From: Shackletoniella antarctica
Lineage (GTDB): Bacteria; Cyanobacteriota; Cyanobacteriia; Phormidesmidales; Phormidesmidaceae
Direction of reading: 5' to 3'
Length of the DNA: 36,922 bases
Assembly (NCBI GenBank): GCA_003241845.1
Contig: QBMN01000022.1
Coordinates: 1-36,922, forward strand
In this document: positions 5,365-11,938 of the stretch, piece by piece
Layout: each line of letters opens with the position of its first letter
How positions within the stretch are numbered: the stretch's first letter is position 1
Notes under the pieces: generated by a model
The model's database searches: none
What the model was told of the DNA's origin: nothing
The model's input: the letters and a program-made list of their open reading frames with translations, nothing else
Translations under genes and position numbers: made by a program

Positions 5365-5820
5365 ATGGTTCAAACTGCACCTCAGATCCCAGCCAGCACC
5401 CTGCCCGCCGATAGCTACGTGGTGGTGGGTCTAGCCACCTGCTACCTGCGCCAAGAGGGCGAAACCCTGGAAATTCAGGTGCTAGAGCCAATTCCCTCGG
5501 CCTACCTGCAATCGGTGCTCCAGGGCATTCCCACCTCCTACACCGCCATCTGCGGTGCCACCCTCGCCCAGGCTCAGGCTCTCGACCTTTCCGAAATTGC
5601 CGCCGCCCCGGCCCAGCCCTGCGCCGACTTTGAAGAGCGCCTTCAGGCCGCTGCCCGCACCTACCAGTCTCAGCCCGAAGCGGTCAACCTGGTGCCCGTG
5701 GGTACCGTCAAGCGCGACCTCAACCACTCCACCGAGCGCAAGCGGGTGCTCAACAGCCAGCGCAAAATCTCCAAAAACGACAACGTGAAGCAGCACAAGT
5801 ACACCCACGAAGTGCTGTAG
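5365..5820 (+). CDS. Conserved cyanobacterial hypothetical protein
   Basis: 151 residues. The N-terminal half is a mixed domain (SYVVVGLATCYLRQEGETLEIQVLEPIPSAYLQ) and the C-terminal tail is strongly basic and conserved-looking (VKRDLNHSTERKRVLNSQRKISKNDNVKQHKYTHEVL). I recall proteins with this tail across cyanobacteria but no function; the basic tail suggests RNA, DNA or membrane contact (inference). No signal peptide or membrane segment. The stop codon lies inside the 34-nt palindrome shared with the convergent fur gene, so the two transcripts probably end at the same structure. Confidence 0.75.
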   Translation: MVQTAPQIPASTLPADSYVVVGLATCYLRQEGETLEIQVLEPIPSAYLQSVLQGIPTSYTAICGATLAQAQALDLSEIAAAPAQPCADFEERLQAAARTYQSQPEAVNLVPVGTVKRDLNHSTERKRVLNSQRKISKNDNVKQHKYTHEVL

Positions 5821-5847
5821 GGGCGCACGGCCGTGCGCCCCTACAGC
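5814..5847. terminator. 34-nt perfect palindrome between convergent genes
   Basis: A perfect palindrome with arm GCTGTAGGGGCGCACGG and no spacer. It contains the stop codon of the 5365 gene (5818-5820) and ends one base before the fur stop codon (5849 on the minus strand). It has no strong T-run. It is best read as a two-way transcript end built from a dispersed GTAGGGGCG-type repeat. Confidence 0.65.
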
Positions 5848-7575: not shown

Positions 7576-8307
7576 TCAAAGCCCAAGCACCCCTACCTGG
7601 TGCTGGCGGGGGACGATGTCGAGCACGTCGAGCTGGGCGCAGTATTTGAGATCGGCCTCGTTGTTGAGGCGCAACAGGCGCTGGCCGTGGCTGGCGTAGT
7701 GCATCAGGTCGAGCAATTGGTCTTGCCATTGCAGGTAGAGGCTGACGGCGGCGATCGCCGCGTCATTCCCCGCCAGCGTTTTAAAGGTCTGCCCAGTCGC
7801 GGCAATGATGCCATGGATGATGGCCCCAGCGCAGACCGTGTCTTCGAGGGAGTAAGTGCCCTCCCAGCCCGAGCCAACAATCCAAACCGTTTCAGGCGTT
7901 TGGCTGAGCAAAAAGTTGACCACCGCCTGGCGGGTGGTGAGGGCGGCGGTGATCACCGTGGGGGCGTGCTCAATGCGCTTGAGGCAGCGGGTGCCGTTGG
8001 TGGTGCTCATAAACAGCCGCTTGCCCCCGGAGCGATCGGGGGAATGGTCGAGGGGCGAGTTGCCTAGGTCACAGCCTTCGACCTTGCCGCCGCCCCGTTC
8101 TCCCGCCCGCAGGCGCTGGTCAGCGGGCCAGGCTTCGCTGGTGGTCAGCAGACTGTCGATGTCGCTAAACACCTGAATCGCCTCGGCCCCCGCCGCCAGG
8201 GCCGCCGCCATGGTAGTAGTGGCCCGCAGCACATCAATGGCGATCGCGCAGTCGGGCATGCCCTGCTCAGGCACTTCTTCGGGGGTGTGGAATAGGAATA
8301 ACTTCAC
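7576..8307 (-). CDS. comB: 2-phosphosulfolactate phosphatase family protein
   Basis: 243 residues from GTG 8307. ComB releases sulfolactate from 2-phosphosulfolactate in coenzyme M biosynthesis in archaea; cyanobacteria carry close relatives although they do not make coenzyme M, so the substrate here is uncertain. Near the N-terminus are [23 protein letters not shown] and, further on, [11 protein letters not shown] and [21 protein letters not shown], all typical of the family. An ATG further upstream (8370) would add 21 residues not expected in the family; GTG gives the usual [13 protein letters not shown] start, though no strong ribosome site is visible. A Gly-rich insert ([14 protein letters not shown]) in the middle is ordinary for cyanobacterial members. 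Confidence 0.88.
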
Positions 8308-8538
8308 GGCGGGGGAGTTTGCGTAGGGTATATGACCAGAACCTGAGTCGCCAACCAGAGGCGACAACACCTCATTCTATGCGGGGAGTGTAAAGGTGCA
8401 TTCCCCCAGGCTGCCATTGGGCCGATAAATTTCAATTTTTTTAAGCCCTATAGAGGTTGCAGCTGGGCCACACTAGCGTCTCTTGGTGATCACCTGGCCA
8501 AGCTAGGCCAAGCTGCCCTAGCCTCTTGGCCTTACTTA
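8308..8538. other. Gap between comB and the insertion sequence
   Basis: 231 nt without a gene. It must hold the comB promoter on the minus strand, but no boxes stand out. A repeated GGCCAAGCT occurs near 8500-8515. The stretch ends at the inverted repeat of the insertion sequence at 8539. Confidence 0.5.
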
Positions 8539-8555
8539 GGATCGAGGATTAAATA
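8539..8555. repeat. IS right inverted repeat
   Basis: 17 bp, perfect inverse of 9845-9861. It overlaps the transposase stop codon (TAA, 8549-8551). Confidence 0.9.
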
Positions 8556-9783
8556 GTTGAGCCAATTTGGGCTAGATTTGCCAGGGCAGTGTAATTCCAT
8601 TTGGGCAAGACATCATCGAAGACGATTTGGATGCTGGCTTTGAGTTCATCGGTCGCCTTCTTACCAGTCTCGTAGACCTTATCCAGGACGGTGGTAACGA
8701 CCGCTAACCCTTTGGCCGTTGTAGCCGTTGCCATCAGGTCTTTAACGACGTCGACGGATTCGAAGATGACGCCTTGCGTGGCCCGGGTTAGATGAGGAAA
8801 CAAGCGATGCTCGATAGGATTGTACTTAGAGGTGTAAGGGGGATAATGGGCGACGCGAATATTAATGCCCAGCTCAATGGCTAAGGCTTGCAGCGCGGCT
8901 TTGAAAAGATAGGAACGAGAGCTGTTGCTGCCGCCGCCATCGCAGAGTAGCCATAGCGAGGTGGCCGTTCTATACCGGCCTCGCCCATGGTTTTGCCACC
9001 AATAGCGTAGCGAATCAATGGCAAATTCATGGGTATCGCGAGAGGTGCCAATCTGGACGTAGCCGATGTTCTCGCTCAGGTCATAGAGCCCGTGCGGAAT
9101 CGCCCTGCCCGTTGCCAGCGACGCCCAGTCATGGTCATAGACCTCTATGGGCGCTTGAGTGTAGGTGTGGCCAACTCGATACAGTGAGCCTATCAACTCT
9201 TTTTTTTGGTGTCCATGCTGATCACCGGTTCACCCGTCGATTGATAGCGCTCTACCAGCTCATGAATCTTTTCAAACTGCTCATTGCGGGCAGGATTGCT
9301 GCCCGTTGCCTTGCGCTTCAGCGCTTGCCGTCGCCGAAACTGATGGTTATCGAGCAATTGGTCGACCACCGTGACGCTGATGCTAATCGCTTCTTCGTCA
9401 GCTAAGCGGTCGGCTATTTGCTGTCGGGTTAAGTGCGTCCACTTGATTGAATCATCCATCGGTGACCCTGCAGTATGACGCTCGATTACCCGCAGAAAGG
9501 CTGCATCGAGGCCCTCAATCGTTTCGAAAGCGCTTTTCCGTCCACCCCCAGCAGCTCGCTGACGGTCTTCACTCATCGCCTCAGTATCCGATAGCTCCGC
9601 TATTCCCAGCCGTATACTCTGCCGCACACAGCCCAAGACTCGATGGATATAGCTGATTCCCCCGTGGCCTATCTTCACCGCTTCGATGGCCGCGTAGCGG
9701 CGGCGGTCTTTCTCGCTCAAGGACTGATAGTAGCGCTGCATCTGCGCTTCTATCGCTGGCGAGTAGGTGCGGACTGTCTTCAT
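8549..9783 (-). CDS. ISAzo13-family transposase (two frames, -1 shift)
   Basis: Encoded in two overlapping frames: 9193-9783 (196 residues, N-terminal) and 8549 to about 9207 (C-terminal). Slipping back one base in the A8 run (9200-9207) joins them as DTKKKELIGS and gives one protein of 411 residues, in phase with the whole length. The N-terminal half has helix-turn-helix-like text (IEAVKIGHGGISYIHRVLG; LTRQQIADRLADEEAISISVTVVDQLL). Catalytic residues: Asp in ISMDTKKKE, Asp in LLCDGGGSNSSR, Glu in TSKYNPIEHRLFPHL. It cuts and rejoins the element ends. Frame shifting may be programmed or the result of a one-base loss; both halves otherwise look undamaged. Confidence 0.85.
9200..9207 (-). promoter_or_regulatory. 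A8 slippery site for -1 frameshift
   Basis: Eight A on the coding strand. Frame 0 reads Lys-Lys-Lys-Ser then stops within four bases; one step back reads Lys-Lys-Lys-Glu-Leu-Ile and continues to the C-terminal half, restoring the DTKKKEL sequence usual in this family. Confidence 0.7.
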
Positions 9784-9844
9784 TTTCTGGGCTACCTAGG
9801 GCGATATTACTGGATTCCCTTATTGTCAGGCATAGTGACTCTTT

Positions 9845-9861
9845 TATTTAATCCTCGATCC
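9845..9861. repeat. IS left inverted repeat
   Basis: 17 bp, perfect inverse of 8539-8555. It lies 62 nt upstream of the transposase ATG, so the element promoter is expected between them. Confidence 0.9.
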
Positions 9862-10411
9862 ATAGGGAAGTTCGCGACCGGTAACATCCCCTATGCCAGG
9901 TTCAGGGCAGGCACGTGGGTCTGCCCCTACGCGATGTCCCCCCGGTAGGGGCGAACCTGTGTGTTCGCTCAAATCCCCACATAGGGAAGTTCGCGACCGG
10001 TAACATCCCCCATGCCAGGTTCAGGGCAGACACGTGGGTCTGCCCCTACGCCATGCCCCCCGTTAGGGGCGAACCTGTGTGTTCGCCCAAATCCCCACAT
10101 AGGGAAGTAACATCCTCCATGCCAGGTTCAGGGCAGACACGTGGGTCTGCCCCTACGCCATGCCCCCCCGTTAGGGGCGAACCTGTGTGTTCGCCCAAAT
10201 CCCCACATAGGGAAGTAACATCCTCCATGCCAGGTTCAGGGCAGACACGTGGGTCTGCCCCTACGCCATGCCCCCCCGTTAGGGGCGAACCTGTGTGTTC
10301 GCCCAAATCCCCACATAGGGAAGTAACATCCTCCATGCCAGGTTCAGGGCAGACACGTGGGTCTGCCCCTACGCTATGCCCACCGGTAGGGGCGAAACTG
10401 TGTGTTCGCTC
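9862..10411. repeat. Tandem array of five 108-119-bp double-hairpin units
   Basis: Units start with ATAGGGAAG at 9862, 9981, 10099, 10207 and 10315; lengths are 119, 118, 108 and 108 nt, and the last is cut at about 10411. The first two carry an extra TTCGCGACCGG near their start that the last three lack. Each unit holds two hairpins: GGGCAGAC/GTCTGCCC around ACGTGG (GGGCAGGC in the first unit), and GGGCGAAC/GTTCGCCC around CTGTGT. Open frames across the array are artefacts of the repeat. The second hairpin carries the TAGGGGCG start seen in the palindrome at 5814. It is not a CRISPR: units are near-identical with no unique spacers. Confidence 0.93.
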
Positions 10412-10415
10412 CCGC

Positions 10416-10421
10416 TACAAT
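10416..10421 (+). promoter_or_regulatory. Possible -10 box for the helicase gene
   Basis: TACAAT, 24 nt before ATG 10445 and right at the end of the tandem array. No clear -35 box is seen at the proper distance; if one exists it lies in the last repeat unit. Confidence 0.3.
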
Positions 10422-10444
10422 ACCCCCAGTAACCATCGACTACC

Positions 10445-11938
10445 ATGGGGCGCACTCCCACTCTCACCTACGATCGCGGCACCCTGATTCTGCACCCGCC
10501 CCCGCGCGGCAAAAGCTGGGTAGAGTTTGCCCACTGGGACGATCGCATCGAGAAATTTCGCATCCCCGCCCAGCAGTATCGCTCCCTGGTCGAAACCCTG
10601 CGGGCTGAGCAGGTGCCCTTCACCGATCAGGCCCAGACCTTCGCGTCCCTAGAGCTTGATCCCCAGCTGGCGCTGGAACCCTACCCCCACCAAAAAGAAG
10701 CCCTCCAGGCCTGGGTCGACCAGCGCTGGCGCGGCGTCGTAGTGCTGCCCACCGCCAGCGGCAAAACCTACCTGGCCCAAATGGCCATGCAGGTCACTCC
10801 CCGCCCTACCCTGATCACAGTGCCCACCCTCGATCTCATGCACCAGTGGTACGCCCATCTCAAGCAAGCCTTCCCCGATATAGACGTCGGGCTTTTGGGC
10901 GGCGGATCAAAGGATCGCACCCCGATTTTGGTGGCTACCTACGACAGCGCCGCTATCCATGCCGAGAGCTTAGGCAACCAGTATGCTCTGCTGATCTGCG
11001 ACGAGTGCCACCATCTGCCCAGCGACTTTAACCGGGTGATTGCTGAATACTCCATTGCTCCCTACCGCCTGGGGTTGACCGCCACCCCCGATCGCGCCGA
11101 CGGTCGCCACGACGACCTCAACCATCTGCTGGGGCCAGTGGTCTACGCCAAATCAGCAGCAGACCTGTCGGGAGATGCCCTGGCCCCGTTTCAGATTGTG
11201 CCAATCAAGGTCAAGCTGTCTCACGAAGAAAGAATTCGCTACGACCAGCTGCTGGCCCAGCGCAACCGCTTTTTACAGGAGGCCAACATTTGGCTTAGCT
11301 CGGCCCAGGGGTGGCAGCGGTTTGTGCGGGCCAGCGCCCAGTCTGCCGGGGGGCGGCGGGCCATGCTAGCCCACCGAGAGGCGCGGGCGATCGCCCTGGG
11401 CACCGGGGGCAAACTGCGGGTGCTAGCCGATCTGTTGGCCCAGCACCATCCCGACCGGTGCATCATCTTCACCAACGACAACGCCACCGTCTACCAGATC
11501 TCTGAAACCTTCTTGATCCCCGCCATCACGCACCAGACCCCGGTCAAAGAGCGCCACGCTATTCTCCAGCGCTTTCGCAGCGGCGAGTATCCCATCCTGG
11601 TCGTCAGCCACGTGCTCAACGAAGGGGTCGATGTGCCCGAGGCGCGGGTGGCCATTTTGCTCTCGGGCAGTGGCTCCACCCGCGAGTACGTACAGCGGCT
11701 GGGGCGCATTTTGCGCAAGGGCAGCGGCAACAAGCAGGCGGTGCTCTACGAAGTAGTGGCCGAATCAACTACCGAAGAAGGCATCTCCAGCCGCCGCCGC
11801 CAGGGGGTGCAGCCTCAGCCTAATCGCCCTCGCCAGCTTGAGCTGGTGCCCGTCAAGCCAGTTTATAGCGCCGATCCCCTACCCTCTGTACCCCGCGCCG
11901 CCGAAGCCCCACCCCAAGACCATGACCTGCCCTACTAG
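10445..11938 (+). CDS. XPB/Ssl2-like superfamily 2 DNA helicase
   Basis: 497 residues. An N-terminal damage-recognition-like domain of about 75 residues is followed by two RecA-like domains. Seen: Walker A PTASGKT (102-108), DECHH (from D186), TATP (from T212), VVSHVLNEGVDVPEARVAILL, and QRLGRILRKG (from Q417). The layout fits bacterial and archaeal XPB-type ATP-dependent 3'-5' helicases. A thumb-like insert between the RecA domains is rich in Arg and Ala. The C-terminal 60 residues are Pro-rich and disordered-looking. In many genomes XPB sits beside a Bax1/DUF790 nuclease; none is next to it here. A role in DNA repair is inferred from the family. Confidence 0.88.
   Translation: MGRTPTLTYDRGTLILHPPPRGKSWVEFAHWDDRIEKFRIPAQQYRSLVETLRAEQVPFTDQAQTFASLELDPQLALEPYPHQKEALQAWVDQRWRGVVVLPTASGKTYLAQMAMQVTPRPTLITVPTLDLMHQWYAHLKQAFPDIDVGLLGGGSKDRTPILVATYDSAAIHAESLGNQYALLICDECHHLPSDFNRVIAEYSIAPYRLGLTATPDRADGRHDDLNHLLGPVVYAKSAADLSGDALAPFQIVPIKVKLSHEERIRYDQLLAQRNRFLQEANIWLSSAQGWQRFVRASAQSAGGRRAMLAHREARAIALGTGGKLRVLADLLAQHHPDRCIIFTNDNATVYQISETFLIPAITHQTPVKERHAILQRFRSGEYPILVVSHVLNEGVDVPEARVAILLSGSGSTREYVQRLGRILRKGSGNKQAVLYEVVAESTTEEGISSRRRQGVQPQPNRPRQLELVPVKPVYSADPLPSVPRAAEAPPQDHDLPY

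Follow-up and report, generated by a model that had tools for sequence, protein, structure and literature searches.

The window, a stretch of 36,922 nucleotides from Shackletoniella antarctica (contig QBMN01000022.1), contains between positions 9862 and 10411 a tandem array of five head-to-tail, near-identical units. The array is located between genes, with an ISAzo13-family insertion sequence on its left (8539-9861, minus strand) and the gene for an XPB-like DNA-repair helicase of 497 aa on its right (10445-11938, plus strand; PF18458, PF04851, PF16203). The units start at 9861/9862, 9980, 10098, 10206 and 10314; the first four are 119, 118, 108 and 108 nt long and the fifth is truncated at about 10411, a copy number that comes from one genome and that a short-read assembly could misstate. 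Tandem Repeats Finder reported a period of 108, 97% matches and a score of 767. Each unit carries two palindromes, ten in the whole array, along which plus-strand GTAGGGGCGAACC alternates with minus-strand GTAGGGGCAGACC. Exact GTAGGGGC heads seven of the ten, and the remaining three, at the left ends of inner copies, show TTAGGGGC. Thus, the original prediction of five near-identical units of 108-119 nt, each with two hairpins and ordered as two units with an 11-nt block followed by three without it, described the layout of the array correctly.

When the array was used to search congeners, the dispersed matches were about 109 nt long and covered positions 9942-10050 of the window. These dispersed doublets measure 104-106 bp, have conserved ends and a conserved spacer, and are 75-89% identical to the first full copy in the window. 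Since they end at GTAGGGGC and GCCCCTAC, the travelling unit is, judged by these ends, the doublet at 9945-10049 and differs from the unit of the original prediction. Within the array the natural doublet runs from GTAGGGGCGAACC to GGTCTGCCCCTAC over 105-106 bp. Divided in this way, the array is therefore composed of a half, four full and another half REPIN. The right half of a truncated REPIN comes first (9862-9930), which is cut by the end of the insertion sequence, has the 11-nt block at about 9870-9880 and ends in a minus-strand GTAGGGGCAGACC REP. It is followed by copy 1 (9945-10049, 105 bp), which represents the ancestral form and has both the 11-nt block and a GTAG at either end, and by copy 2 (10063-10156, 94 bp), in which 11 nt are deleted and the left head is TTAG instead of GTAG. 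Copies 3 (10171-10264) and 4 (10279-10372), also 94 bp each, are identical to copy 2, and the last REP, the left half of a REPIN with the sequence GTAGGGGCGAAAC (10386-10411, plus strand), lies beside the helicase promoter region.

The architecture is that of a REPIN: two GTAG-headed REPs of opposite orientation, GTAGGGGCGAACC and GTAGGGGCAGACC, flank a conserved spacer. The palindromes are short and GTAG-headed and occur in many genomic copies, with 51 exact GTAGGGGCAGACC in the own genome, whereas the reversed control gave 0, and the 104-106-bp doublets in congeners show that the inverted REP pair with its spacer of fixed length is dispersed as a unit. The family is in addition linked to a cognate transposase, which is intact in one congener (G186) and of which relics adjoin REPINs in G000, G001 and G002. 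Altogether, these data let us conclude with high confidence that a single GTAG-type REP doublet family (REPIN/BIME-like) makes up this tandem cluster, a family that was probably spread by a REP-associated tyrosine transposase (RAYT) before the cluster grew locally. The array is thus real but mostly ordinary, a member of the already known REP/REPIN class of small mobile repeats; both this nature and the transposase had gone unrecognised in the original prediction. Two other classes were considered and rejected: a CRISPR array, since whole units repeat without unique spacers, and a known structured RNA family, as no Rfam match was obtained up to E = 1 in 8300-10600.

Close counterparts are on record. 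The REPINs of Pseudomonas fluorescens SBW25 (PMC3116915) are likewise inverted REP doublets of about 100 bp, dispersed and RAYT-adjacent, and some of them were described as forming ordered clusters, in which nearly identical REPINs recur together with the sequence that flanks them; the cyanobacterial host, the REP GTAGGGGC, the array of five units and the decayed transposase of the own genome set the present case apart. The GTAG REP superfamily (PMC3733652) shares the GTAG-headed palindromes and dimers with GTAG outside and a spacer of 20-100 bp, is known from Cyanobacteria and includes clusters that are repeated in tandem along with the adjacent DNA, whereas the family of the array is without assignment to any of its numbered families. 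Finally, the BIME arrays of Escherichia coli (PMC8266576) are likewise runs of tandem copies in which each REP is followed by an inverted one; our family differs from them in REP sequence and RAYT group.

Outside the window, GTAGGGGCAGACC was counted about 45 times in G001, 59 times in G003 and 79 times in G005, and 0-3 times in the other searched congeners; together with the own genome, these three are where the REPIN family is most abundant. Within the genus, 6 of 28 genomes, among them the own genome, have the exact doublet pattern, and looser doublets of the same type were detected across many phyla, on at least 119 contigs. Doublets of the type GTAGGGGCRRACC (L086-L204) span Nitrospirota, Acidobacteria, Bacteroidetes, the Planctomycetes-like Jettenia and others, with a RAYT nearby at 14 of 119 loci.

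Tandem REPs were also detected elsewhere in the own genome, namely 13 at 51 nt (C6, L055) and 6 at 69 nt (C53, L056), and REP pairs are additionally spaced 38, 45, 56 and 108 nt apart. Each of these other arrays has its own local flank, and the period differs from locus to locus. An arrangement special to the helicase locus, as had been implied, was consequently not supported: palindromes and doublet are dispersed and arrays occur at other loci. Single units at many sites with no array elsewhere had been named as the outcome that would reduce the unit to a plain repeat; the many sites were indeed found, but so were further arrays. In both the C6 and the C53 array the variants alternate, so that the most recent duplications probably involved two units at a time. 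The window's REPIN family forms another tandem array, with a period of 118, in a congener (G001:C164, 823-1164; L018) beside a RAYT relic of 23 residues.

The transposase was traced through G186, in which an uninterrupted frame of some 200 codons encodes a REP-associated tyrosine transposase (NF047646, E 7e-16; its score of 58.4 is below the curated cut-off of 80). A 106-bp REPIN lies within this coding sequence and is 81% identical to copy 1 of the window, compared with a mean of 58.5% and a maximum of 65.1% in 300 shuffles, and two more REPINs (77% and 75%) follow past the 3' end of the gene. Used as query in a translated search, the G186 protein matches the array itself, since the REPIN encodes the in-gene peptide. 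Contig C240 of the own genome contains a C-terminal relic of this same RAYT, 83% identical over 76 residues and with one stop, which adjoins two REPINs that are 89% and 80% identical to copy 1; further relics beside this REPIN family were found in G002 (85%) and G001 (78% over 23 residues). An intact cognate RAYT was not found in the own genome, G001, G003 or G005, of which the assemblies of G003 and G005 are about 85% complete. Two other RAYTs of the own genome, on C45 and C239, were rejected as cognates because the flanking REPs are of other types (GCACC; ATTGC and AAACG). The array is thereby a clear cyanobacterial example of a REPIN family with relatives that lead back to a copy within the gene of a transposase.

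The G186 protein contains the motifs MPNHFH, VWQRNYY and YIRNNP. According to PMC6006769, TnpAREP subclass 2.4 (RAYT group 4) is characterized by NH[IFV]H, WQ and YIxNNP together with a REP inserted in the gene, and the G186 protein shows all of these as NHFH, WQ, YIRNNP and a REPIN in its coding sequence, a placement that is based on motifs and in-gene REP and not on a tree with the published set. The hosts given there, Cyanobacteria, Bacteroidetes and scattered phyla, agree with the cyanobacterial host found here. In-gene REPs as such were discarded as a new feature, because that paper already reports them for subclass 2.4. Among the cyanobacterial RAYT loci (L211-L240, L022 and L036), an GTAGGGGC REP or REPIN is located between the HUH and tyrosine motifs in 22 of 31, and in-gene GTAGGGGC REPs occur in RAYTs of other phyla, too (L135, L176, L164, L162, L111, L187, L165, L189, L110 and L143). 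At 13 of 18 loci, the 5 nt that follow the in-gene GTAGGGGC agree with those of the REPs on its flanks (shuffle mean 2.3, 0 of 10000 as high, with a shuffle that ignores relatedness). Such matching of in-gene and flanking REP types was not found in the text on in-gene REPs covered from PMC6006769.

The copies of the array differ in a pattern that bears on its growth. By their left halves, the units form two classes (1-2, which have the 11-nt block, and 3-5, which lack it), and by their right halves three (1, 2-4 and 5). Units 3 and 4, both in the interior, do not differ from each other, and the TTAG head is limited to the multiplied interior copies, from which the outer copies differ. The idea that the order of the units reveals how the array grew therefore holds for internal duplication; a simple history of two units followed by three does not fit the mosaic of right-half classes. 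Furthermore, the 11 nt had been taken for an insert. As the dispersed copies of the relatives have the block, it is ancestral, and the 94-bp copies carry a deletion. In those TnpAREP systems that were tested, cleavage is impaired or lost when GTAG is altered (PMC8266576). Because the inner copies have lost the GTAG head, the local growth probably reflects unequal recombination or slippage rather than transposition.

Repeated RAYT-mediated insertion or rolling replication would be the other route to such an array, and as REPINs are RAYT-linked and models with single-strand circles exist for arrays (PMC3733652), this deserves consideration. We regard it as unlikely: it is the inner copies with the changed head, TTAG, that were multiplied, no intact cognate RAYT was found in the own genome, and the other arrays consist of a single REP plus local flank with a locus-specific period, as local duplication predicts. 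According to the preferred scenario of transposase-driven spread and local growth, a RAYT (TnpAREP) with an in-gene REPIN would have spread the family as a single-stranded hairpin substrate, as suggested by the linkage, and one or two REPINs would have landed upstream of the helicase. Unequal recombination or replication slippage would then have enlarged the cluster at this site, as the copy pattern indicates. Tandem growth after loss of the GTAG head would hence separate dispersal, due to the transposase, from local amplification, due to recombination or slippage.

The left edge of the array coincides with the exact right end of the ISAzo13-family element, which was identified by matches to PF07592 and NF033519 and by perfect 17-bp inverted ends (8539-8555 and 9845-9861). 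The element is multicopy, and its other copies in the own genome terminate at the same bases. This boundary lies inside the leftmost REPIN, which the element may have cut as the last step of the scenario. No remnant of the array or of a REPIN was detected in 8371-8538, beyond the far side of the element; therefore, either insertion of the IS or a neighbouring deletion would have truncated the array. The IS transposase is split into two frames (9193-9783 and 8549-9196) that overlap by 4 nt, which may reflect either decay or a programmed frameshift.

At the right edge, 33 nt (34 nt in the original prediction) separate the array from the ATG of the helicase at 10445. Orthologues of the XPB-like helicase were found in 12 of 12 congeners. 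A putative -10-like box, TACAAT (10416-10421, plus strand), is located 4 nt from the array and occurs at the same place upstream of the helicase in 8 of the 11 congeners with a readable start; its function is suggested by this conservation. The last unit had been placed in the promoter, and it does touch the promoter region, adjoining the conserved TACAAT. In the window the array stands in place of the sequence that congeners have upstream of the box. A consensus scan of the region yielded no promoter- or terminator-like site. From its position, an effect of the array on helicase transcription is possible, and with its place at the helicase promoter it offers a natural test of whether REPIN clusters affect expression.

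A selected regulatory element, in which REPs upstream of the -10 box tune the helicase, perhaps by their copy number, would fit the 4-nt distance and the displaced upstream sequence, and REP arrays beside other genes have been proposed as expression modulators (PMC3733652). Nevertheless, this appears improbable, since none of the 11 congeners with a readable start has an GTAGGGGC REP within 1.5 kb upstream of the helicase, so that the feature is not conserved, similar arrays occur at other loci and the region is without a consensus promoter. Even less probable seems a combined version in which an orphan REPIN cluster with a dead transposase still expands by recombination and, through co-option, now serves the helicase as upstream promoter region, with copy number tuning expression.

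Transcribed RNA had been expected to form ten hairpins in a row, whereas two units are predicted to fold as RNA into a single long nested stem (MFE -90.8 kcal/mol, z -3.4 versus shuffles). That the array serves as a source of structured, ten-hairpin RNA with a function of its own is scarcely credible, as the folding above shuffles is a consequence of the palindromes, the units are dispersed elsewhere, and neither an Rfam match nor a consensus promoter or terminator was found. The consensus fold of the REPIN alignment pairs both ends (33 pairs), but with nearly invariant arms and a slightly unfavourable covariation term of +0.72 the alignment is no proof of one long REPIN hairpin, and in the predicted single-stranded DNA fold copy 1 prefers two separate hairpins.

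Some further observations concern REPs outside the array. Eleven of the 13 occurrences of GGATGGGTGGATGG in the own genome are within about 60 nt of an GTAGGGGCAGACC-type REP (C17, C53, C66, C93, C148, C221, C232 and C282). Single REPs in the own genome adjoin GGATG-rich tracts, for which target choice and later expansion are both possible explanations. The window itself contains a perfect palindrome, GTAGGGGCGCACGGCCGTGCGCCCCTAC, at 5817-5844, whose GTAG provides the TAG stop of the ORF 5365-5820; stop codons supplied in this way were described for other GTAG REPs (PMC3733652).
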